47,892 nt of DNA, taken from NCBI GenBank assembly GCA_030750465.1, contig JASMHZ010000008.1:1-47892 (forward strand). The letters run 5' to 3'. Shown here piece by piece: positions 15,461 through 25,774 of the stretch (the first letter of the stretch is position 1; the number at the start of each line of letters is the position of its first letter). A model generated the notes under the pieces. That model saw only the letters and a list, made by a program, of their open reading frames with translations. It had not been told where the DNA came from and searched no databases. Origin of the DNA: Candidatus Peribacteraceae bacterium (GTDB lineage: Bacteria > Patescibacteriota > Gracilibacteria > Peribacterales > Peribacteraceae). The position numbers and the translations under genes were made by a program.

Positions 15461-16147
15461 TTATTTCCTCCTCTTTTTACTCTTGTCCTTCCTTTTCTTG
15501 GTCTTTGAAGCCTTTTTAGCCACAGCGGCAACCCTCAGCTTAGGTTTAACTTTTGGCATCTTTGGCTTTGGGAACTTGGGAACTTTGCAAATACCGCAGA
15601 AAAGAGGGGGTACAGGAGCTTTGTCGTTTCGAGTGCTCATGTATAGAACGAAGCCATACAGAAGCAGAGTTACAGGCATTATCCACCATCCTTCCTCAGC
15701 TCCACCAAGAATGATTGTCAACACGATAGATAGTCCAGCCAAGAGTCCTGTCAGGCTTCCGATAACTTTCACGGTATAAATGAAGATAAGAGACGGCACC
15801 AAGCGGGAGCTGGAATCAAGTGAATGAACCCAGTGATCATGCCAAAGGAAGATGCAGCCGCCGGTAGCAAAAACTATCAGCAGTCCTACGTACGTTGCAC
15901 TTGCATAGGATGTACCTGCAAGGACGCTGGTAACTGTGGGTAATGCTGCGACAGTCATCAGCAAAATTCCAATACCCATCATCACGAAGCAGAAGATTGC
16001 CTGTGCTACGCGGGATGGATTGGCGTTGGAGCTTACTAAGCTGGCGATTAAAAAGAATGAGAACAGCATGATGAGTACTATTGGCACCAAAAGGCCGTAG
16101 ACCACACCTACCGAACCAAAGACAGTTGCCAGAGGTTGTTCAACCAT
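15461..16147 (-). CDS. Hypothetical multi-pass membrane protein, 228 aa
   Basis: About five hydrophobic helices (around residues 14-38, 46-68, 78-101, 118-142 and 150-168), then a basic cytoplasmic tail of 60 residues. The tail has PKFPKPKMPKVKPK and a Lys/Arg-rich end (KKRKDKSKKRRK). A single LFCGICKVPK motif follows the last helix. No family recognised. The position between rplK and rplA, on the same strand with gaps of 94 and 185 bases, suggests possible cotranscription with ribosomal genes. The basic tail could contact rRNA or nascent ribosomes, but that is speculation. Confidence 0.7.
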   Translation of the reverse strand: MVEQPLATVFGSVGVVYGLLVPIVLIMLFSFFLIASLVSSNANPSRVAQAIFCFVMMGIGILLMTVAALPTVTSVLAGTSYASATYVGLLIVFATGGCIFLWHDHWVHSLDSSSRLVPSLIFIYTVKVIGSLTGLLAGLSIVLTIILGGAEEGWWIMPVTLLLYGFVLYMSTRNDKAPVPPLFCGICKVPKFPKPKMPKVKPKLRVAAVAKKASKTKKRKDKSKKRRK

Positions 16148-16891: not shown

Positions 16892-18070
16892 ATGAAGAAT
16901 TCAACTCTTGCGAGTTATGTAGTTATTGCCGTTTTGGTATCTGGGATTGGTTTAATTCAATCTTTTAACAAAACGGATACTTTTGTCGCTACCTCCTTAT
17001 CTTTCCCGTTTGGTAATGGTAACGATTGTCAGAATATTAAGTGCGAGAATGGCAGGGAATTCCCTCGATGCGACAATGGAAATCCAATCAACTACTTTGC
17101 AGATCCTTGTAGGAATCCAGCAAGCGATACAGAATGCGGTAATGGAAAATGTGAAGAAGGAGAGGCAGATAAATGTATTTGTCCTGATAATAATCTGCAA
17201 TGCAAAGCTCCTTGTTTAGTTGGATCTTGTCCGCGTGATTGCAAGAATGAGAAACCTATTTGTGGAAATGGAAAATGCGAGGAAGGAGAGGATATGATTT
17301 GCCCGCCTTGCGTACCTGGTGGAAACTGCAAGTGCAGTCCTCCTAGATGTCCTAAGGATTGCGGTGGTGGTGGAGGCAGCGACGACGACGATGATGACTC
17401 GGATATTGATGATCTAAAACGAGCCTACGAGAAATCGAAAAAGGCAAAGGCGGATGCATGGGATACTTATCTTTCAGCAAAGGAAGATGCGAAGAAGAAA
17501 TATCTAGATAATAAGAAAAAGTATTGGGGTTCTTATAAGTCTGCCAAAGCAGAAGCCTTTGGAGAGTACAAAGACAAGAAAGCAGAAGCCATGAAGGAAT
17601 ACTTGGATATAAAAAAGGAAGCAGCAAAGGAATATTTAGATGCAAAGAGTTCTGCAAAGGAAGAATATATGGATGCTAGAGCTGTATACGAGGTGGCTAA
17701 AGCGGCATACCAAGAGTGTAGGAAAAACGATAAAGGAAATTGTGAATCTGAACGTGATGCTTACAAAGATACGCGTGGCGATAAAAAAGATGCAGCTGCC
17801 AAATACATTGCAATCAAGAAAAAAGAAAGGACCAAGTACGAAGATGTTAGAGATGATGCAAAAAAGGAATACCAGGATAGACGCAATGATGATAGAGCCG
17901 AATATACAGAAATAAAGGGAGAGAAACGTTCTGAGTATGATGAGAGAAAAGCTGAAGCAAAGTCTGAGTACAAAGAAACTAGAGTCGATGCTCGTGCTGT
18001 ATATAATGATAAGAAGCAGGACTATCTGGATGCGAAAGCTGCCTACGATAAGGCTAGAGGAAGAAACTAA
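16892..18070 (+). CDS. Exported Cys-rich head / 11-residue-repeat helical protein (member A)
   Basis: A 392-residue protein. A signal peptide (about 1-25) leads to a Cys-rich head (about 46-155) with two copies of a CGNGKCEEGE motif, each followed by a run of Cys-Pro-rich sequence ending CPRDC or CPKDC. A linker of Gly and Asp (GGGGGSDDDDDD) follows. The rest is 11-residue repeats with Tyr at fixed positions (EYKDKKAEAMK, EYLDIKKEAAK, EYLDAKSSAKE), interrupted once by CRKNDKGNC, and it ends AYDKARGRN. I infer an extracellular or wall-facing helical hairpin pinned by a disulfide. It is the first gene of the cluster; member B follows after 19 bases. No known family recognised for the body. Confidence 0.85.
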   Translation: MKNSTLASYVVIAVLVSGIGLIQSFNKTDTFVATSLSFPFGNGNDCQNIKCENGREFPRCDNGNPINYFADPCRNPASDTECGNGKCEEGEADKCICPDNNLQCKAPCLVGSCPRDCKNEKPICGNGKCEEGEDMICPPCVPGGNCKCSPPRCPKDCGGGGGSDDDDDDSDIDDLKRAYEKSKKAKADAWDTYLSAKEDAKKKYLDNKKKYWGSYKSAKAEAFGEYKDKKAEAMKEYLDIKKEAAKEYLDAKSSAKEEYMDARAVYEVAKAAYQECRKNDKGNCESERDAYKDTRGDKKDAAAKYIAIKKKERTKYEDVRDDAKKEYQDRRNDDRAEYTEIKGEKRSEYDERKAEAKSEYKETRVDARAVYNDKKQDYLDAKAAYDKARGRN

Positions 18071-18089
18071 ATACTTTCTATTAATTTTC

Positions 18090-18929
18090 ATGAAAAATAT
18101 TATTATCGCAATCAGTGTATGTCTAGCAGTCCTTGTAGTTGCAAGTGGTGGCAATGCGGTTAGTTATCGTTTGTCGGATTCGAATCTAAACTTCATTACA
18201 ATTGCGCATGCCAAGGCCAGTAAATCAAAAATTAAAAAGCTGATTAAAAAGCGTAACAAAGCAAGGTCAGCTAAAGGCAGGGCATACAAAAGAAAGAGGA
18301 AATATTGGCAAAGATATTTGGATGTCAAAACGAAAGGCAAGCAAGATTATTTGGATAAAAAAAAGGAAAATTGGAAAAAATATAAGGATGACAAAAAACA
18401 AGCCTTCGAAGATTATAAAGAGGAAAAGAAAAATGCTCTTAAGGATTACGAGAAAGCCATTGAAGACGCAAAAGATGTTTTTATAAAAGCTAGAGATGCT
18501 GCGTTGAAGATCTATGAAGCTGCTAAAGATTTTTATGAGGCGAAAAAAGCCACTTATCAGGGGTGCCAAAAAGGAGGAACCGGTTGCCAAGCAGCCAATG
18601 ATGCATATGTTGCCGCGCGTGAAGCAAGAAATGCAGAGGCTATAAAATATTCCAATGCGAAAGCAGGATTAAAAGCTCAATACTTAGCTGCAAAAGATCG
18701 GGCGAAGAAGGAGTATAAAAAGCGAAAGAAAAAAGCTAGGCCTGATTACGAAAAGAAGAAGAAAAAATTGAGAAAGGACTATGATAAAAATAAGGAGAAA
18801 GAAAAGAAGAAATATCTGGATAAGAAGGCCAAAGCTCGTGCTAAATATGATAAAGCCAAAGCATCTTATGCAAAAGCAAAGGCCAAATACAATGCGGCAA
18901 AGGCTGCCCTTAAAAAGGCAAGAGGATAA
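18090..18929 (+). CDS. Exported 11-residue-repeat helical protein (member B)
   Basis: A 279-residue protein. The signal peptide (about 1-22) is followed by a short head with YRLSDSN, a motif shared with member C (YRLSDAN), and no Cys-rich domain. The body is a Lys/Tyr/Ala-rich helix with 11-residue spacing (DYLDKKKENWK, KYKDDKKQAFE, DYKEEKKNALK). It has a CX6C turn (CQKGGTGC), a second helical stretch and a KKARG end. Very basic overall. It starts 19 bases after member A and is probably cotranscribed with it. The role is unknown; an envelope-spanning or surface stalk is inferred. Confidence 0.82.
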   Translation: MKNIIIAISVCLAVLVVASGGNAVSYRLSDSNLNFITIAHAKASKSKIKKLIKKRNKARSAKGRAYKRKRKYWQRYLDVKTKGKQDYLDKKKENWKKYKDDKKQAFEDYKEEKKNALKDYEKAIEDAKDVFIKARDAALKIYEAAKDFYEAKKATYQGCQKGGTGCQAANDAYVAAREARNAEAIKYSNAKAGLKAQYLAAKDRAKKEYKKRKKKARPDYEKKKKKLRKDYDKNKEKEKKKYLDKKAKARAKYDKAKASYAKAKAKYNAAKAALKKARG

Positions 18930-18932
18930 TAT

Positions 18933-18967
18933 TGTCAATCACAATTAATCAAAGCAGTTGCTACAAC
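18933..18967 (+). promoter_or_regulatory. Shared promoter box upstream of member C
   Basis: TGTCAATCACAATTAA, with the TGTCAA start exactly 29 bases before the -10-like TACAAC. It matches the boxes of members D, E and F. The predicted leader has no Shine-Dalgarno and is pyrimidine-rich (CTCCCCTTATC). Confidence 0.6.
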
Positions 18968-18997
18968 GGCCGTTAACTCTATCTCCCCTTATCTGTT

Positions 18998-19657
18998 ATG
19001 AAAAAACTCATTCTCACCGGCAGCCTGTGTATTGCAGTGATTGCGGTTGCAAAGTTCGGATACATTATCGATTATCGTTTGTCGGATGCTAATTCTGTTG
19101 TTGTATTGCGAGTCCAAGCTGGCCCGTCACGCGATACATTACAATCGTTAAGAAAGAAAGTTGAGGCTGCAAAAAGGGAAAAGCGAAGATTGTGGTCCAT
19201 GTATAAGTCTACCAAGATTAAAGAAAAAGAAAGGTATGAAACAGCAAAGAAAGTATCCTTCGATAAGTACAATAAAGCTAAGGCGACAATACTCAGTAAA
19301 TACAAAGATGCTAAGGCGAAAGCTAAGAGCGATTACGATACCAGAAGAAAAAAAGAGTGGAAGATGTACAAAGGTAGAAAAAAAGTTGCATGGGACAAAT
19401 ATCAGAATGCAAAAAAAAACTATACAGAAAAAAAGGAATCATATAAAAAATGCAAAGTCCATAATACAGAATTTGATTGCCGTGCTCTACGTACGGAATA
19501 CAAGGAAGCTAGACGGAAAAGAAAAGATTATAAATACCACTACAATGCTACTAAAGATCCTAATGATCCAAACTCTTATAGGGCCAGATATGACAGAGTA
19601 AAGGCCAAATTCAAGTCTAATTACGAAAAAAAACTCAAAAAAGGAGCAATATTATAG
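18998..19657 (+). CDS. Exported 11-residue-repeat protein (member C), frameshifted 5' part
   Basis: A 219-residue open frame. The signal peptide (about 1-20) is followed by the YRLSDAN motif shared with member B, then Tyr/Lys-rich repeats (RYETAKKVSFD, KYNKAKATILS, KYKDAKAKAKS), a CX8C turn (CKVHNTEFDC) and the start of the second helix. The frame ends at a TAG just after two A-runs (A8 at 19626-19633, A6 at 19637-19642). The repeat pattern continues in another frame from 19659. The Tyr register suggests more than one base has changed (roughly 5 missing), so real decay is more likely here than a single-base error. Confidence 0.75.
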   Translation: MKKLILTGSLCIAVIAVAKFGYIIDYRLSDANSVVVLRVQAGPSRDTLQSLRKKVEAAKREKRRLWSMYKSTKIKEKERYETAKKVSFDKYNKAKATILSKYKDAKAKAKSDYDTRRKKEWKMYKGRKKVAWDKYQNAKKNYTEKKESYKKCKVHNTEFDCRALRTEYKEARRKRKDYKYHYNATKDPNDPNSYRARYDRVKAKFKSNYEKKLKKGAIL

Positions 19658-19940
19658 AGTGAAGCAGAATAAAAGAGATGAATATGATAGGCGAAAGGCT
19701 AAATTGATATCACGGTATGTAAGAGAGAAAAAATATATAAAGCAGGAATATGAATCTAATAAGAAAAAGGCAAAAGAGAGGCATAGCAAGAGAAAGCAAA
19801 AAGCCCGAGAAGATCGTGATAAAGTGATTAATTCAGTTCGTAAAACCTATCAAAAATTCAAGAAAAAATATGAAGAAATTAAAAGGATATACGAAAATGC
19901 AAAAAAAGCGCACGAAAAAAGAAAAGTGCAAGATGAGTAG
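19643..19940 (+). pseudogene. Out-of-frame 3' part of member C
   Basis: In the frame beginning at 19659 the same composition and 11-residue Tyr spacing continue (EYDRRKAKLIS, RYVREKKYIKQ, EYESNKKKAKE), ending KKAHEKRKVQDE without the usual KARG tail. It has no start region or promoter of its own, so it is best read as the displaced C-terminal half of member C. A +1 shift near AAAAAAGG at 19637-19644 would join the two parts. Confidence 0.7.
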
Positions 19941-19959
19941 AATGGACAGAATGCAGAGT

Positions 19960-19994
19960 TGTCAATCACAATTAATTTTATCAGTTGATAAAAT
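19960..19994 (+). promoter_or_regulatory. Shared promoter box upstream of member D
   Basis: TGTCAATCACAATTAA, 29 bases from its start to TAAAAT. TTGT-CAATC-ACAA is an inverted half-site pair and could be an operator or an unusual -35. The leader to ATG 20025 is 30 bases and pyrimidine-rich. Confidence 0.62.
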
Positions 19995-20024
19995 GCCCAT
20001 TGATCCTGTTTTCCCCTCAATTAT

Positions 20025-21752
20025 ATGAAAAGAATAGCTCTTATAACCACAGTGCTTATTTGTGCTATGGCTGCTGGATCAGTATTTTTAGCAGGTCCTC
20101 AAATGGCAAATGCCGCGAATTACTATGACGTATATCCTCCTTATGTTTCTTGCTTAAAGCAGGGCAGTAATTCCGATCTTCCAAACTGTGAAGAATGCCT
20201 TGGTGAAATGTGCAAAGAGTATATGAATAGTGATGATCCTTTTGGTAATGCTATGAACGAGTGTAAGGAGTATTGTTATGACGTATATCCTCCATATGTG
20301 TCTTGCTTAAAGCAGGGCAGTAATTCCGATCTTCCAAACTGTGAAGAATGCCTTGGTGAAATCTGCAAAGAGAACATGAATAGTGATGATCCTTCAGGGA
20401 TTTCTATGAACGAGTGTAAGGAGTATTGTTATGACGTATATCCTCCATGTGATATTTGTGAGAAAAGAAAATGCAAAAATGATGAGAATTGTTTTGCGGC
20501 ACACCAGAGTAGGTGCTTCACGAGCGATGATGGACAACAGGGATGGACAGGGTGCGGTGAAAGTGGGGCTGGCTATATTTGTGATGTTTGCAGAGGTAAA
20601 AGCTGCGATGGAGGGCATTGTTTTGCCAGAACACTGCATGCATGCTCCACAGACCATAATCCGCATGGCAAGTGGAAGAAGTGCAAAAGTGGCGGCGGCG
20701 GAGGTTCTAAATGTACTAATGCAAAGAAGAAAATGTGCATGAAGGACTCAGGAAAAAAATGTGTTGTTGAGAATAAAAAAGCAAAATGTAAAAAGAAGGA
20801 TGATGGTGGAGGCGGAGATGATCTTTGTTCAAAGAAAGACAGAACAGGATATTTTGACAGAGATGAGTGTGTTAGAAGATATAAATCAGTAAAGGATGAT
20901 CCCAATAGTGGTTTTAAACTTTGCAAGCGCGATGGGTGGCCTTATGTTGTGATGTTTGAGAATACCGGATTCAGGGTTGGGTGTTCCAGACATCCAAAGG
21001 GAGATCTTTGTTCTCCGAATGCTATACGCTTAATATGTCCTGTGGAATCAGACGATTATAAAGATGATGGTGGATCTTCTAATATCGATAAACTGAAAAA
21101 GGAATACAAGGATGCCAAAAAAGCAAAAAAAGATGCTTGGGCAAACTATCTTAAAGTAAAAGAAAAAGCTAAATCCGCCTTCAAAACCTCAAAAAAAGAT
21201 GCCTGGGAGTCTTATTTAGACAAAAAAGCTGATGCCCTTAAGACTTACAAAGATAAGAAGGCAGAAGCAAAGAAGAAATATTTAAAAACGAAGAAAAATT
21301 ATAGAGACGATTATTTGGATTCAAAAAAGGCTGCCAGAGTGAAATATGATGATATTAAAGCTTCATATGAAGTTGCAAGAGCTGCATACAAGAAATGCAG
21401 GAAGGATGGAGGAAGCAAAAAAGACTGTAAGGATAAGCGCGACAAATACAAAGATTTGCGTGATGATAGAAATGAAGCCTTGAAGGACTATAAAGAAATA
21501 AAAGCCGACGCCAAATCTGCATACGAGTCGAAGCGGGATGAAGCAAAAGAGGCTTATGTGGAAACTAGAGATGCCGCAAAGAAAACTTATCAGGGTGATA
21601 AAAAGAAAGAGCGTTCTAAGTATGATGAGACTAAGTTAGAGTTAATGGCTACGTATAAAGGCAACGTGGGTAATGCACGCGGAAATTATGATGAATTAAA
21701 AAAGATCTACCTAAAAGCAAAAGAGGCTTACGATAAAGCAAGGGGGAAATAA
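20025..21752 (+). CDS. Exported multi-Cys head / 11-residue-repeat helical protein (member D)
   Basis: At 575 residues the largest member. After the signal peptide (about 1-31) come two near-identical 51-residue units starting YDVYPPYVSCLKQGSNSDL. Then two six-Cys modules of the type CxxC-x4-C (CDICEKRKC, CDVCRGKSC), a Gly-rich linker, a further Cys-containing region (about 225-345) and a DDYKDDGGSS spacer. The body is the family helical hairpin: EYKDAKKAKKDAWANYL, repeats such as TYKDKKAEAKK, a CRKDGGSKKDC turn, and an AYDKARGK tail. The head repeats suggest recent duplication. Its own promoter box lies upstream. Confidence 0.87.
   Translation: MKRIALITTVLICAMAAGSVFLAGPQMANAANYYDVYPPYVSCLKQGSNSDLPNCEECLGEMCKEYMNSDDPFGNAMNECKEYCYDVYPPYVSCLKQGSNSDLPNCEECLGEICKENMNSDDPSGISMNECKEYCYDVYPPCDICEKRKCKNDENCFAAHQSRCFTSDDGQQGWTGCGESGAGYICDVCRGKSCDGGHCFARTLHACSTDHNPHGKWKKCKSGGGGGSKCTNAKKKMCMKDSGKKCVVENKKAKCKKKDDGGGGDDLCSKKDRTGYFDRDECVRRYKSVKDDPNSGFKLCKRDGWPYVVMFENTGFRVGCSRHPKGDLCSPNAIRLICPVESDDYKDDGGSSNIDKLKKEYKDAKKAKKDAWANYLKVKEKAKSAFKTSKKDAWESYLDKKADALKTYKDKKAEAKKKYLKTKKNYRDDYLDSKKAARVKYDDIKASYEVARAAYKKCRKDGGSKKDCKDKRDKYKDLRDDRNEALKDYKEIKADAKSAYESKRDEAKEAYVETRDAAKKTYQGDKKKERSKYDETKLELMATYKGNVGNARGNYDELKKIYLKAKEAYDKARGK
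20124..20429 (+). repeat. Tandem 153-bp duplication in the head of member D
   Basis: Unit starts at 20124 and 20277, with the start of a third copy at 20430 (YDVYPP only). The units are exactly 153 bp, keep the frame, and differ at few positions, so the duplication is recent or kept similar by conversion. Confidence 0.9.
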
Positions 21753-21765
21753 TCGTTAATAATTC

Positions 21766-21800
21766 TGTCAATCGCAATTAAATCTACTTCTAAGTAAAAT
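21766..21800 (+). promoter_or_regulatory. Shared promoter box upstream of member E
   Basis: TGTCAATCGCAATTAA, 29 bases from its start to TAAAAT, leader of 27 bases (CCCCTTCCTC) to ATG 21828. Confidence 0.62.
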
Positions 21801-21827
21801 CCAACGTAAGTTTACCCCTTCCTCGAC

Positions 21828-22658
21828 ATGAAAAAAGTTTCTTTTGTGATCGCAATGCTAATTAGTGCTATAGCTGTTGGATCGGTTTTCTTTGTGAATA
21901 CTGAATCAGCGAGCGCCGCCGATGGAGGTAATCAATTATTGGCTGGGTCCGATGACATTCCGGATGTAGATGATGATGACGACGATGATATTGCAGCCCT
22001 TAAGAAAGCTTATAAGGAAGCTAAAGTAGCAAAATCCAAAGCCTGGAAAACATACAAATCAGTAAAATCCAGTGGAAGGAAAAAGTATGATAAAACAAAG
22101 AAGTCAGCTTGGAAAAAATATCTCTCGGAAAAAGAGTCGGCTTTCGAGAGATACAAAGATAGAAAAAAGGATGCTAAGAAAAAATATTTAGATAAAAAGA
22201 AAAAGGCGAGAGATAAGTATGTGGGAATAAAAAAGAATGCCAGAGGAGAATATGATGCAGAAAGGAAGTCATACGATAAGGCCAAAAAAGCATACAAAAA
22301 ATGCAGAGATGACGGTGGAAGCTCCAAAGATTGCAGGGAAGAGAAGGACACATACTTGGATGCTCGTGAGGATAAAAGCGCAGCTTCGCAGAACTATAAT
22401 GAAATAAAAGGAAAGGCCAAGTCTGATTACGAGTCGAATAGAGACAAAGCAAAATCTGACTACGTAAAAGCCAGGGATGCAGAAAAGAAGAAGTACGCAG
22501 CTAGCAAGAAGGAATCACGATCAGAATATGATAAGAAAAAATCTGATGCTAGATCCGATTATGATGATGCGAAAGAGGGATCAAGAGCTGCTTACGATAA
22601 GGCCAAAAAAGCTTACAAAAAAGCGAAGAAAGCTTACGATAAAGCGAGAGGGAAATAA
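21828..22658 (+). CDS. Exported 11-residue-repeat helical protein (member E, minimal form)
   Basis: A 276-residue protein and the minimal member: a signal peptide (about 1-31, SASAADGG), a short acidic spacer (DDIPDVDDDDDDD), and then only the shared helical hairpin. The first arm runs through KAWKTYKSVKSSGRKKYDK, with 11-residue steps such as KYLDKKKKARD. A CRDDGGSSKDC turn follows, then a second arm (DYESNRDKAKS, DYVKARDAEKK) and the AYDKARGK tail. There is no Cys-rich head, which shows that the body alone is the common unit. It has its own promoter box. Confidence 0.85.
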   Translation: MKKVSFVIAMLISAIAVGSVFFVNTESASAADGGNQLLAGSDDIPDVDDDDDDDIAALKKAYKEAKVAKSKAWKTYKSVKSSGRKKYDKTKKSAWKKYLSEKESAFERYKDRKKDAKKKYLDKKKKARDKYVGIKKNARGEYDAERKSYDKAKKAYKKCRDDGGSSKDCREEKDTYLDAREDKSAASQNYNEIKGKAKSDYESNRDKAKSDYVKARDAEKKKYAASKKESRSEYDKKKSDARSDYDDAKEGSRAAYDKAKKAYKKAKKAYDKARGK

Positions 22659-22685
22659 GAATTAATGATTAACCGTTATTAATGA

Positions 22686-22720
22686 TGTCAAGTACAATTC
22701 GTCTCATCTCTTGGTAAAAT
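22686..22720 (+). promoter_or_regulatory. Shared promoter box upstream of member F
   Basis: TGTCAAGTACAATT, 29 bases from its start to TAAAAT. The core TGT-CAAGT-ACA keeps the inverted symmetry. The leader is 32 bases and pyrimidine-rich (CTTTCTTCTTTC) to ATG 22753. Confidence 0.6.
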
Positions 22721-22752
22721 GCTCCTTAAATTGAGCTAATCTTTCTTCTTTC

Positions 22753-23604
22753 ATGAAAAAAGCGTTTGTTATACCAGTAGTACTATTCGTTTTATTTGCA
22801 TTCTCAGAGACAAAAACTGCGTATGCTTTCGAGATGTGCGAAGGCCCATGTGCTCAATGCAATTACACTAAATGTGGATCCGGAGAAAGTTGTTATGCAA
22901 AAGGATTATTTAATGCAGCGATTTGCAAAAGCCGTGCTGGTTACCAAATGTGCAGGAATTCATCTGGAAAATGCCAGGATAGCGGTGTTGGTGGTTCCTT
23001 ATGCGACGCTTGTAAGGATCACGAATGCGGCTCTGGTAGTTTTTGCGTTACAACCAAAACTGTTCACGGCCAGTACAAGGCGAGATGCGTATATAGATCA
23101 ATGAAAGGTCCGGTGAATATGGACCGTGCTCGCGTTTGCGATCCAGCGGGATGGTGCGCGGCTTGCATCGGCAAAAAATGCTCAAGTGGCCAGACTTGCT
23201 ATGTTAACTACAATGACTTAAGGCCCGCATGCAAAGCTAAAGTCACACAGCATTATACTAAATGCAAAAATAAGACTGGATCTTGCGCAAAATGCCCTGA
23301 TTGCGATGGCAGACAAAAGTGCTATAAAGAGAAGGGCACAAAGCAGGTTTTTTGCATGACTGATTTTCATCTCAGGTACAAGAAATGCAGCAAGAGCGAA
23401 ATGAAGAAAGCGCTCAAGTCAGCTTACAAAAAAGCAAAAAGCGAGAAATCAAAAGCATGGTCCGCTTATAAGTCGAAAAAAAAGGAAGCGAAGGCTAAAT
23501 ATGAAGAAGTAAGAAAATTAGCTTGGGATACTTATAAAGTCATCAAGAAAGATGCTTTTAATAAATACAAGCAAACAAAGGAGGGCGCAAAAAAACTTAT
23601 CTAG
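22753..23604 (+). CDS. Exported Cys-module / helical-repeat protein (member F), frameshifted 5' part
   Basis: A 283-residue open frame. A signal peptide (about 1-25) leads to four Cys modules of the form CxxC...C...C[YFV]: CAQCNYTKCGSGESCY, CDACKDHECGSGSFCV, CAACIGKKCSSGQTCY and a shorter CPDCDGRQKCY. The same module type occurs in member D. The helical body begins at AYKKAKSEKSKAWSAYKS and breaks at A7 (23589-23595), where GCA AAA AAA is followed by CTT ATC TAG. A -1 shift there gives ...AKKTYLDKKKKAKDKY, which keeps the Tyr spacing at exactly 11. Confidence 0.8.
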   Translation: MKKAFVIPVVLFVLFAFSETKTAYAFEMCEGPCAQCNYTKCGSGESCYAKGLFNAAICKSRAGYQMCRNSSGKCQDSGVGGSLCDACKDHECGSGSFCVTTKTVHGQYKARCVYRSMKGPVNMDRARVCDPAGWCAACIGKKCSSGQTCYVNYNDLRPACKAKVTQHYTKCKNKTGSCAKCPDCDGRQKCYKEKGTKQVFCMTDFHLRYKKCSKSEMKKALKSAYKKAKSEKSKAWSAYKSKKKEAKAKYEEVRKLAWDTYKVIKKDAFNKYKQTKEGAKKLI

Positions 23605-24065
23605 ATAAGAAGAAAAAAGCGAAGGATAAATATTTGGGTATAAAAAACCCGGCAAAAAAGAGATATGAAAATGCTAGGAAAGCTTATGAAAAGTCCAAAG
23701 TTGCATATAAAGAATGCAAAGATGCTGGAGGTAGTTCAAGCAAATGCAAGGACAAGAAGAACAAATACAAAGCTGATCGCAACAAAAGAAACGAAGCTCT
23801 TGAAGATTATAAAGAAAAAAGGAGCCGGGCTAAATCAGAATACGAATCCACGCGCAATAGCGCCAAAAAAGATTACGAAAAAGCACGCGATGATGCCAGG
23901 AAGGTATACAGCGACATCAAAAAGAATAAAAAGAAGGACTACGATAAAGTTAAAGCTGATGAAAAGAAAAAGTATGAAGATGCAATCAAAGATGTCAAAA
24001 AGGACTATAATAGTAAGAAGAAAGCTTACGAAAAAATTAAGAAGGATTACGAGAAAATGAAGTAA
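23595..24065 (+). CDS. 3' part of member F in the -1 frame
   Basis: In the -1 frame after the A7 run the body continues without disturbing the repeat: TYLDKKKKAKDKYLGIK, a CKDAGGSSSKC turn, then DYEKARDDARK- and DYNSKKKAYEK-like steps to the stop. There is no promoter or signal peptide, and the first ATG in this frame (23634) lies mid-repeat, so this is the C-terminal half of member F rather than a gene of its own. Joined, F is about 437 residues. The cause may be a one-base deletion, a sequence error, programmed -1 frameshifting at A_AAA_AAA, or slippage. Confidence 0.75.
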   Translation, partial: TYLDKKKKAKDKYLGIKNPAKKRYENARKAYEKSKVAYKECKDAGGSSSKCKDKKNKYKADRNKRNEALEDYKEKRSRAKSEYESTRNSAKKDYEKARDDARKVYSDIKKNKKKDYDKVKADEKKKYEDAIKDVKKDYNSKKKAYEKIKKDYEKMK

Positions 24066-24075
24066 TCTCTAAATC

Positions 24076-24675
24076 TTATTTAGTCAGCTTCTCTATCAAA
24101 TCAAACATCTCATCCTCATAGTTTTTTGCTAGATGGAATTCAAACAACCTGTTTCTGACTCTAACAAATACTAATCTTTCTTCTCCGATCCCGGGGTCGG
24201 AGAAAGACAGCAAATTTCTTTCTGCTCGCCCCTCTCGTTTCTGAGTTTCGTCTATAAGGTCTTTAACTTGGGGAGTGAAAGAAACATGGAGAGCTTCTTT
24301 AAGTGATAAGAAGTAGATTTTAACTTTAGGAGACTCTGACCATGCTACAAATCCGGCGCGATCCGAGTCTTTTATAAGTGCTCGGGACTGAACAGGCGTT
24401 CCATCTTTAATAATCATGGAAAGTAAATTCTGCTCATCTGAGTGCTGGAATTTGTATTGCTCACTCACAAGAATTTCCAGAATATTGGGTGCCTTGGCAG
24501 TTTCAGCTTTCTGATTTTTTTTGGCAAGCCTGGGCTGAGGTCTTTGTTGAGGCTGGTTTTGTGCTTGAGGCTTGGTGGCAACTTCAGGAAGCTTAGCTGA
24601 AGTAAAAAATACATCAGCTGTGCTTATGGCGAGCAGTATCACGATCAGCCCCAAAGTCACTATTGGCTTGTTCAT
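24076..24675 (-). CDS. Hypothetical exported protein, 199 aa
   Basis: I start at MNKPIVTLG, which gives a clean N-terminal hydrophobic segment (residues 5-22). Next is a Gln/Pro/Ala/Lys-rich linker (about 30-60, QAQNQPQQRPQPR), then a folded region of about 130 residues with beta-like segments (RLVFVRVRNRLFEFHLAKN). It is either a membrane-anchored or a secreted protein; no Cys lipobox is seen. It is convergent with the repeat cluster and divergent from ruvB, with 55 bases between the starts. No family recognised. Confidence 0.65.
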   Translation of the reverse strand: MNKPIVTLGLIVILLAISTADVFFTSAKLPEVATKPQAQNQPQQRPQPRLAKKNQKAETAKAPNILEILVSEQYKFQHSDEQNLLSMIIKDGTPVQSRALIKDSDRAGFVAWSESPKVKIYFLSLKEALHVSFTPQVKDLIDETQKREGRAERNLLSFSDPGIGEERLVFVRVRNRLFEFHLAKNYEDEMFDLIEKLTK

Positions 24676-24716
24676 AGCATGAATATTGTAGTACCAAACT
24701 TTAGCAAATCCTATGC

Positions 24717-24722
24717 TATAAT
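24717..24722 (+). promoter_or_regulatory. Extended -10 of ruvB, leaderless arrangement
   Basis: TGCTATAAT, an extended -10, ends eight bases before the ruvB ATG at 24731. The transcript would start at or within two or three bases of the start codon, and no Shine-Dalgarno is present. Confidence 0.65.
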
Positions 24723-24730
24723 CGGATCCC

Positions 24731-25774
24731 ATGGCAATCCAAAGACAGACCAGATCCTCTCATCCTGTGCAACCAGGCAAAACAGCGCGAAATAACGATG
24801 TTTTTGAGCAGACTTTGCGTCCCAAAAGCTTAAGCGAGTACATAGGTCAGAGTGATATTAAAGGTCATCTTTTGGTCCATTTAGAGGCTGCAAACAAGAG
24901 AAATGAGCCGATGGGGCATGCTTTGCTTCATGGCCCCCCAGGGCTTGGAAAAACCACTCTAGCGCACATTATTGCTCGAGAAATGGGCTCTCAGGTCAGA
25001 GTCACCACAGGTCCTGCAATAGAAAAGCCGGGAGATCTGGCTTCATTGCTTACAAACCTGGAATCGGGAGATGTTTTGTTCATTGATGAAATTCACAGGC
25101 TTCGTCCCGCCATTGAGGAAGTCTTGTATAGCGCCATGGAAGACTTTGTGCTGGATCTTGTTATTGGGAAAGGTCCGACTGCGAGATCTATGAGGTTAGA
25201 ACTCAAGCCTTTTACCTTAGTCGGAGCAACTACCAAGGCCGGATCAATTTCAGCTCCACTCAGAGATAGATTCGTCCACAACTTCAAGCTTCAATATTAC
25301 TCGGAAATAGAAATGGAGCAGATTGTAGAAAGGACCGCAGGAATTTTGGAAGTGGAATTGGAAGAAAGCGTATCAAATCGTATTGCACTCAGTGCTCGCG
25401 CGACTCCAAGAATTGCAAACAGGTTAGTAAGGGCAGTCAGAGACTTCGCACAGGTGAATGATGAGCCAAAAATTTCTTATGACAGAGTTATTGAAACCTT
25501 GGAATCTCTTGGGGTAGATGATAGGGGACTCGATAAAACCGATCGAGAGATACTGAAGGCGATTATTGAGAAATTCGCAGGCGGTCCGGTGGGCTTAAGC
25601 ACGCTTGCAGCTGCAACATCAGAGGAAGAACAAACTTTGGAGGATATGTATGAACCATACCTTCTTCAGCAAGGCTATTTACAGCGTACGCCGAAGGGGA
25701 GAACGGTAACTCAATTAGCTTACGAACTTCTGGGACTACCTATTCCGACTGATGTACAACGGGGACTGTTTTAA
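24731..25774 (+). CDS. ruvB: Holliday junction branch-migration ATPase RuvB
   Basis: A 347-residue AAA+ motor that drives branch migration of Holliday junctions with RuvA. Walker A is GPPGLGKT (68-75), Walker B IDEIH (118-122), with the RuvB-specific GATTKAGSISAPLRDRF region and a C-terminal winged helix (about 270-347, QQGYLQRTPKGRTVT). The first 20 residues are an unusually polar extension. It is probably leaderless. The EamA-like gene starts nine bases after its stop codon. ruvA and ruvC are not in the window. Confidence 0.96.
   Translation: MAIQRQTRSSHPVQPGKTARNNDVFEQTLRPKSLSEYIGQSDIKGHLLVHLEAANKRNEPMGHALLHGPPGLGKTTLAHIIAREMGSQVRVTTGPAIEKPGDLASLLTNLESGDVLFIDEIHRLRPAIEEVLYSAMEDFVLDLVIGKGPTARSMRLELKPFTLVGATTKAGSISAPLRDRFVHNFKLQYYSEIEMEQIVERTAGILEVELEESVSNRIALSARATPRIANRLVRAVRDFAQVNDEPKISYDRVIETLESLGVDDRGLDKTDREILKAIIEKFAGGPVGLSTLAAATSEEEQTLEDMYEPYLLQQGYLQRTPKGRTVTQLAYELLGLPIPTDVQRGLF

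Follow-up and report, generated by a model that had tools for sequence, protein, structure and literature searches.

Tandem genes for putatively exported hairpin proteins with a tyrosine ladder and varying heads in a Candidatus Peribacteraceae bacterium

We examined a stretch of 47,892 nucleotides from a Candidatus Peribacteraceae genome (GenBank assembly GCA_030750465.1, contig JASMHZ010000008.1, positions 1 to 47,892 of the forward strand; hereafter the window), in which the open reading frames (ORFs) confirm six adjacent genes that run in the same direction and that we call A to F (Table 1). Four of these (A, B, D and E) are uninterrupted ORFs, and C and F each shift frame once, in A-rich sequence. 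The encoded proteins, approximately 280-575 residues in length, have in common a body of approximately 220 residues that we found nowhere else in the source genome. All six begin with signal-peptide-like N-termini, as judged by eye, and clear Ala-x-Ala sites are present in D (ANA), E (ASA) and F (AYA), consistent with the export proposed in an earlier note on this DNA. Cys-rich heads are present in A, D and F, whereas B, C and E carry only short linkers and have only the turn Cys (described below) outside the signal region. The head of A includes two CGNGKCEEGE modules (20 Cys were counted in A), D contains 34 Cys, the head of F has four modules, and D and F share a small module in which five Cys are invariant. 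The earlier note had assigned a signal peptide, a variable head and a repeat body to each of six adjacent genes; the six genes and the body stand, but C and F are split between frames and the heads are confined to three of the six.

Table 1. Coordinates of the genes and features discussed in the text (positions in the window)
Feature	Position	Strand	Remarks
Cluster, genes A-F	16892-24065	+	
Gene A	16892-18070	+	Signal-peptide-like start; Cys-rich head ~16967-17404; predicted hairpin body 17405-18067
Gene B	18090-18929	+	Probably exported; without Cys-rich head; predicted hairpin body 18222-18926
Element TGTCAATCACAATT	18933-18946	+	Before C; no TAAAAT after it
Gene C	18998-19657, on to 19940 in another frame	+	Probably exported; without head
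Frame change in C	near 19626-19645		+1, A-rich
Promoter-like TGTCAATCACAATT-N15-TAAAAT	19960-19994	+	Before D
Gene D	20025-21752	+	Probably exported; long Cys-rich head ~20118-21083; predicted hairpin body 21084-21749
Tandem duplication, head of D	20124-20448		153 bp, in frame; 2.1 copies, 94% matches
Promoter-like TGTCAATCGCAATT-N15-TAAAAT	21766-21800	+	Before E
Gene E	21828-22658	+	Probably exported; acidic linker; hairpin body 21984-22655; structure predicted
Turn Cys codons of E	22302-22304 and 22332-22334		
Promoter-like TGTCAAGTACAATT-N15-TAAAAT	22686-22720	+	Before F
Gene F	22753-23604, on to 24065 in another frame	+	Probably exported; head ~22828-23397; body split
Frame change in F	23589 (to 23604)		-1, at an A7 run
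L1 gene	14662-15366	-	On the L11 side of the cluster; name read from translation
Gene with hydrophobic segments	15461-16147	-	
L11 gene	16333-16755	-	One flank; name read from translation
Small gene	24076-24732	-	Between cluster and ruvB; hydrophobic segments
ruvB	24731-25774	+	Other flank; name read from translation

The bodies follow an eleven-residue period. In A, B, D and E we counted 13-14 aromatic pairs at lag 11, against 2.2-2.5 expected, a value that none of 5000 shuffles reached, and the fragments of C and F agree with this periodicity; the claim that Tyr recurs at every eleventh place is thus borne out. Across 48 hendecads, position a is Tyr or Phe in every case (48/48), e is Lys or Arg in 46, h is Ala in 32, and i is Lys or Arg in 73%; the net charge of the bodies ranges from +9 to +51. 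The earlier note had also described one break per protein of the form C-x(6-9)-C, usually with GG. The Cys pair is present at this spacing in 6/6 members (A CRKNDKGNC, B CQKGGTGC, C CKVHNTEFDC, D CRKDGGSKKDC, E CRDDGGSSKDC, F CKDAGGSSSKC), with GG inside in B, D, E and F and not in A or C. An AYDKARG tail is found in A, D and E.

Outward from this turn, the aromatic residues of each arm form a ladder with the spacing 7-7-11x6-7-7. Counted from the turn Cys, those of arm 1 in A and E lie at 3, 10, 17, 28, 39, 50, 61, 72, 83 and 97, with extra aromatics that are mostly three residues further along, and those of arm 2 in A, B, D and E lie at 7, 21, 32, 43, 54, 65, 76, 87, 94 and 101. The second arm corresponds to the first plus 4, with one rung absent per side and Lys or Arg in its place. 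When the arms are set antiparallel, 8-9 rungs coincide at an offset of +4, and the other offsets tested give 7 at most.

The AlphaFold2 model of E, for which the input was E plus seven further rows, consists of a helix (residues 50-161), a loop and a second helix (170-275), with a predicted local distance difference test (pLDDT) score of approximately 98 in the body and disorder in residues 1-48; Cys159 and Cys169 bracket the loop. Superposition on the hairpins of BAR domains (1i4d, 1x04) covers residues 103-225/226 at 2.3-2.5 Å, and because these superpositions span both arms around the tip, the arms must lie side by side in the model. The N- and C-termini meet at the base, which would place a head or acidic linker at the far end of the rod from the putative disulfide tip. 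Modelling of a 156-residue tail from genome G016 of a sister genus likewise gave a hairpin, with helices at 9-75 and 81-155 and a mean pLDDT of 94. There is strong support for a predicted body in which two helices of approximately 105 residues pair antiparallel as a coiled coil within one chain, with Tyr layers facing and the two Cys bracketing the turn. We have little doubt about the hairpin fold, which the earlier note had anticipated together with the Cys pair at its tip, and this pair would probably form a disulfide there. The structural neighbors of the E model (3g67, SMC arms, F-BAR and colicin E3, at Z 9.5-11.9) were set aside as functional evidence, since such values are usual for long hairpins.

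Comparison of the paralogous bodies yielded nonsynonymous divergences (dN) of 0.43-0.68; synonymous divergence (dS) was 3.0 for D and E and saturated, hence not computable, in the other five pairs. The copies are therefore old and the protein is constrained: the Tyr sites have remained fixed while synonymous sites became saturated. The heads change faster than the bodies. As examples, we point to the in-frame tandem duplication in the head of D and to the head of A, where the window and genome G003 of the same genus differ in frame by 51 bp (17 residues), at a G003 contig end.

An element, TGTCAAKYRCAATT, precedes C, D, E and F, with 4 sites in the window against 0.25 expected. In front of D, E and F it lies 62-67 bp ahead of the start codon, and TAAAAT comes after a gap of 15 bases, giving a promoter-like pattern of the form TGTCAATCRCAATT-N15-TAAAAT. 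The shared upstream sequence suggests that a promoter was copied along with each unit; B lies close behind A and probably shares its transcript. Runs of at least 7 A or T occur at 1.67 per kb in the cluster and 0.52 per kb in the rest of the window, approximately a threefold difference. Phase switching, decay and assembly error are all possible sources of the frame changes in C and F. The second ladder of C is eroded, and this gene may be decaying. Because the ladder of F is whole on either side of its A7 break, that break is either of recent origin, switchable or an artefact of assembly.

We also took advantage of related genomes. When 353 genomes of the class were searched with the A2 profile, the window genome itself gave clear matches, and so did G004. 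The latter belongs to the same genus, and one of its copies has its C-terminal arm at a contig end, with the spacing 11-11-11-11-7-7 preserved. In G003, whose L1 and RuvB part are 97-98% identical to those of the window, the start of A is present at the same place, with 51 bp less head, and runs into a contig end (L042 3898-4116), and another contig starts inside ruvB (L036 1-793); the cluster is therefore probably present in this genome but unassembled. Contig breaks exactly on either side of the cluster, as in G003, are what one would expect if the region is repeated or varies between strains. The genes ruvB and L1 are approximately 9.4 kb apart in the window and 2.3-2.5 kb apart in G001, G002, G004 and G016, from which it follows that these four lack the cluster at this locus. 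Two genes flanking the cluster (24076-24732 and 15461-16147) encode hydrophobic segments and match no Pfam family above the cut-off.

The sister genus (g13) contains 11 paralogues in G016 and 7 in G230, in several groups (L023, L094, L095, L096, L097), with signal-peptide-like starts, differing Cys-rich heads and shorter, heptad-based hairpins; the expectation that profile searches would reveal clusters with varying heads in related genomes was thus correct. In one G016-type subtype the Cys spacing is 57-11-12-11-57 in 2/7 rows and 56-11-12-11-57 in 3/7; the last Cys is absent from the remaining 2/7, one of which had been trimmed short of that position. These three near-mirror Cys pairs about the turn support, independently of any model, hairpins that would be stapled by disulfides. 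Like the proteins of the window, those of the G016 and G230 arrays are encoded in tandem and combine a signal peptide, a varying Cys-rich head and a predicted helical hairpin; unlike them, they have heptad-based tails of approximately 130-156 residues, in which Cys at the turn is either missing or present as several pairs. The A2 profile matches the G016 array at E 4.5e-6, but hhalign aligned 29 columns of the window and g13 bodies, at probability 47, and the reverse search did not return the window. The rods of the window genus (g1) and of g13 may share ancestry.

Beyond the class, a search of the phylum returned one clear distant match, in G639 (E 4.9e-14). This protein (L092 7958-8602, minus strand), from another family of the phylum, is single, headless and apparently exported, has 11-residue Tyr-bearing repeats, and its helical region has a Cys close to each of its two ends; it is possibly a distant or convergent relative with a disulfide at the base. 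Matches in G022, G045, G308, G455 and G666 (E 8e-5 to 8e-4) are weak and were taken as coil similarity. The exported protein of G045 (L025 3714-4802, minus strand) combines three SLH-domain stretches (Pfam SLH, E 9.4e-26) with a Lys/Glu-rich helical tail and is probably unrelated.

Searches of Pfam, NCBIfam and PADLOC returned only weak matches far below cut-offs, apart from the SLH domains of the unrelated G045 protein; PDB gave one chance-level match by sequence and none by profile, pattern-led scans of genome and viral contigs gave no relative, and we found no description of the rod family in the open-licence literature. The suggestion that no characterised family extends along the whole length accordingly holds for these databases. 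Among likenesses of form, the LEA, apolipoprotein and synuclein proteins also combine an 11-residue period with an amphipathic helix. Their helices are induced at surfaces by lipid or drying, whereas here a Tyr core, a stable hairpin and a Cys loop are predicted, and no such family appeared in Pfam up to E 1; the analogy that the earlier note had drawn with them gives way to a closer one with the antiparallel coils of the TRIM type. The maxi type I antifreeze protein (4ke2), which has an 11-residue repeat, is a long helix folded back on itself like the rods, and was a structural neighbor at Z 9.9 over 196 residues; this Ala/Thr-rich fish protein is 13% identical in the structural alignment and unrelated by sequence searches. 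In the TRIM coiled coils (TRIM25, TRIM5-alpha, TRIM69 and TRIM72), long antiparallel helices have central hendecads and flanking heptads (PMC4239116; PMC12549529), and the same heptad-hendecad-heptad plan is found here in each arm. TRIM proteins form an intermolecular antiparallel homodimer and are cytosolic, with RING and B-box domains, whereas the rods are predicted to be exported intramolecular hairpins with a Cys loop and a Tyr core. No Pfam match to RING or B-box was found in the window proteins, nor any sequence relationship to TRIM; the likeness is one of plan, not of membership.

Closer in biological setting is Candidatus Peribacter riflensis, very probably of the same bacterial family, for which the genome report describes clustered, exported, very Cys-rich proteins averaging 1,655 residues. 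Several of them show weak similarity to Cys-rich repeats of Myxococcus; large proteins that are partly extracellular are also reported to vary by indels, and a role in attachment is proposed (PMC4736985). The window proteins are likewise clustered and putatively exported, in part Cys-rich and in part indel-varying between strains, but are far smaller and have a defined hairpin body, no rod being described in the text of that report consulted here. A, D and F share the signal peptide (by eye), clustering and high Cys content, B, C and E lack the high Cys, and strain indels are represented by the 51-bp difference from G003. The rod family fits this Peribacteria setting of Cys-rich exported proteins and adds a defined rod to it.

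What might these proteins do? Our tentative reading, which we hold with something short of even confidence, is that they are secreted head-and-rod proteins whose rods, approximately 16 nm long (105 residues x 1.5 Å), display exchangeable heads at the envelope for attachment. We infer every step beyond the fold. After export, oxidation of the Cys pair would make the rod rigid; if the heads point outward, the disulfide tip would be the envelope-proximal end. The basic, Lys/Arg-rich faces would bind anionic envelope polymers and neighboring rods, and lateral bundling of headed and headless paralogues is probably how the protein would be held on the envelope. The differing Cys-rich heads would then be shown for attachment to other cells or surfaces, and the set would be diversified by indels in the heads and by duplications that take in promoter-like element, signal peptide, head and rod as one unit. 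Several points weigh against this reading. A parallel register gives 9-10 coincidences, and aromatic spacing alone fits it equally; because the pattern is palindromic, that spacing cannot prove antiparallel pairing, and it is the turn and the model that decide. The packing of the arms in the model was read through superpositions. We infer the oxidation of the Cys, as well as the receptor and the binding activity of heads and rods. No membrane or sortase anchor was seen in the sequences, and 3/6 members are without a Cys-rich head. An extended form of display, in which rods co-assemble through their Tyr/Lys faces into mixed bundles, heads vary by duplication and indels, and poly-A slippage switches heads on and off such that cells vary their binding partners, strikes us as improbable.

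Because half of the members are without a Cys-rich head, a structural role follows close behind display, although we consider it on balance unlikely: function would reside in the rods themselves, which would assemble with one another into a layer or bundle rich in Lys and Tyr, attach to the membrane or to anionic polymers of the wall, and coat or space the envelope, with heads secondary. Here the headless rods B, C and E, the strongly basic bodies, the conservation of the rod and the single headless exported rod of G639 find a natural place, and what such a plain spacer would not need are the elaborate, varying heads of A, D, F and the sister-genus proteins. The absence of a visible membrane or sortase anchor would also suit freely secreted effectors or scavengers acting on neighboring cells, with the head as active or binding module and the hairpin as a rod for reach or translocation, and the receptor-binding hairpin of colicin E3 is among the structural neighbors (1ujw, Z 9.6). 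We consider this improbable: such Z values are common for long hairpins, we recognised neither a catalytic domain nor an immunity-like gene, and the cluster comprises six same-direction paralogues, half of them headless. Least probable is a decaying or drifting low-complexity region in which composition and slippage keep the repeats and little function is left. The dense poly-A/T runs, the broken frames of C and F and the narrow distribution are what it would predict, but the bodies show no long tandem array at the DNA level, where repetition stops at 2-3 copies of 21 bp, synonymous sites are saturated around fixed Tyr sites, and the hairpin model is confident. For A, B, D and E, decay is largely excluded.

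The structure of these proteins is thus well supported, and we propose that they may be surface attachment or coat parts of a tiny, uncultivated bacterium. The combination of a putatively disulfide-tipped Tyr-ladder hairpin with varying heads matches no described family that we found. The means by which Patescibacteria recognise other cells and keep hold of them are described as largely unknown, type IV pili being the worked example (PMC12206443). Compact exported rods whose heads vary between copies and strains would offer a concrete, expressible candidate for cell attachment. Whatever the function, the sequence code, in which a is Tyr, e is Lys and h is Ala, the arms match and the Cys are paired, is regular enough to make these proteins useful as a naturally occurring case of a hendecad coil within one chain.

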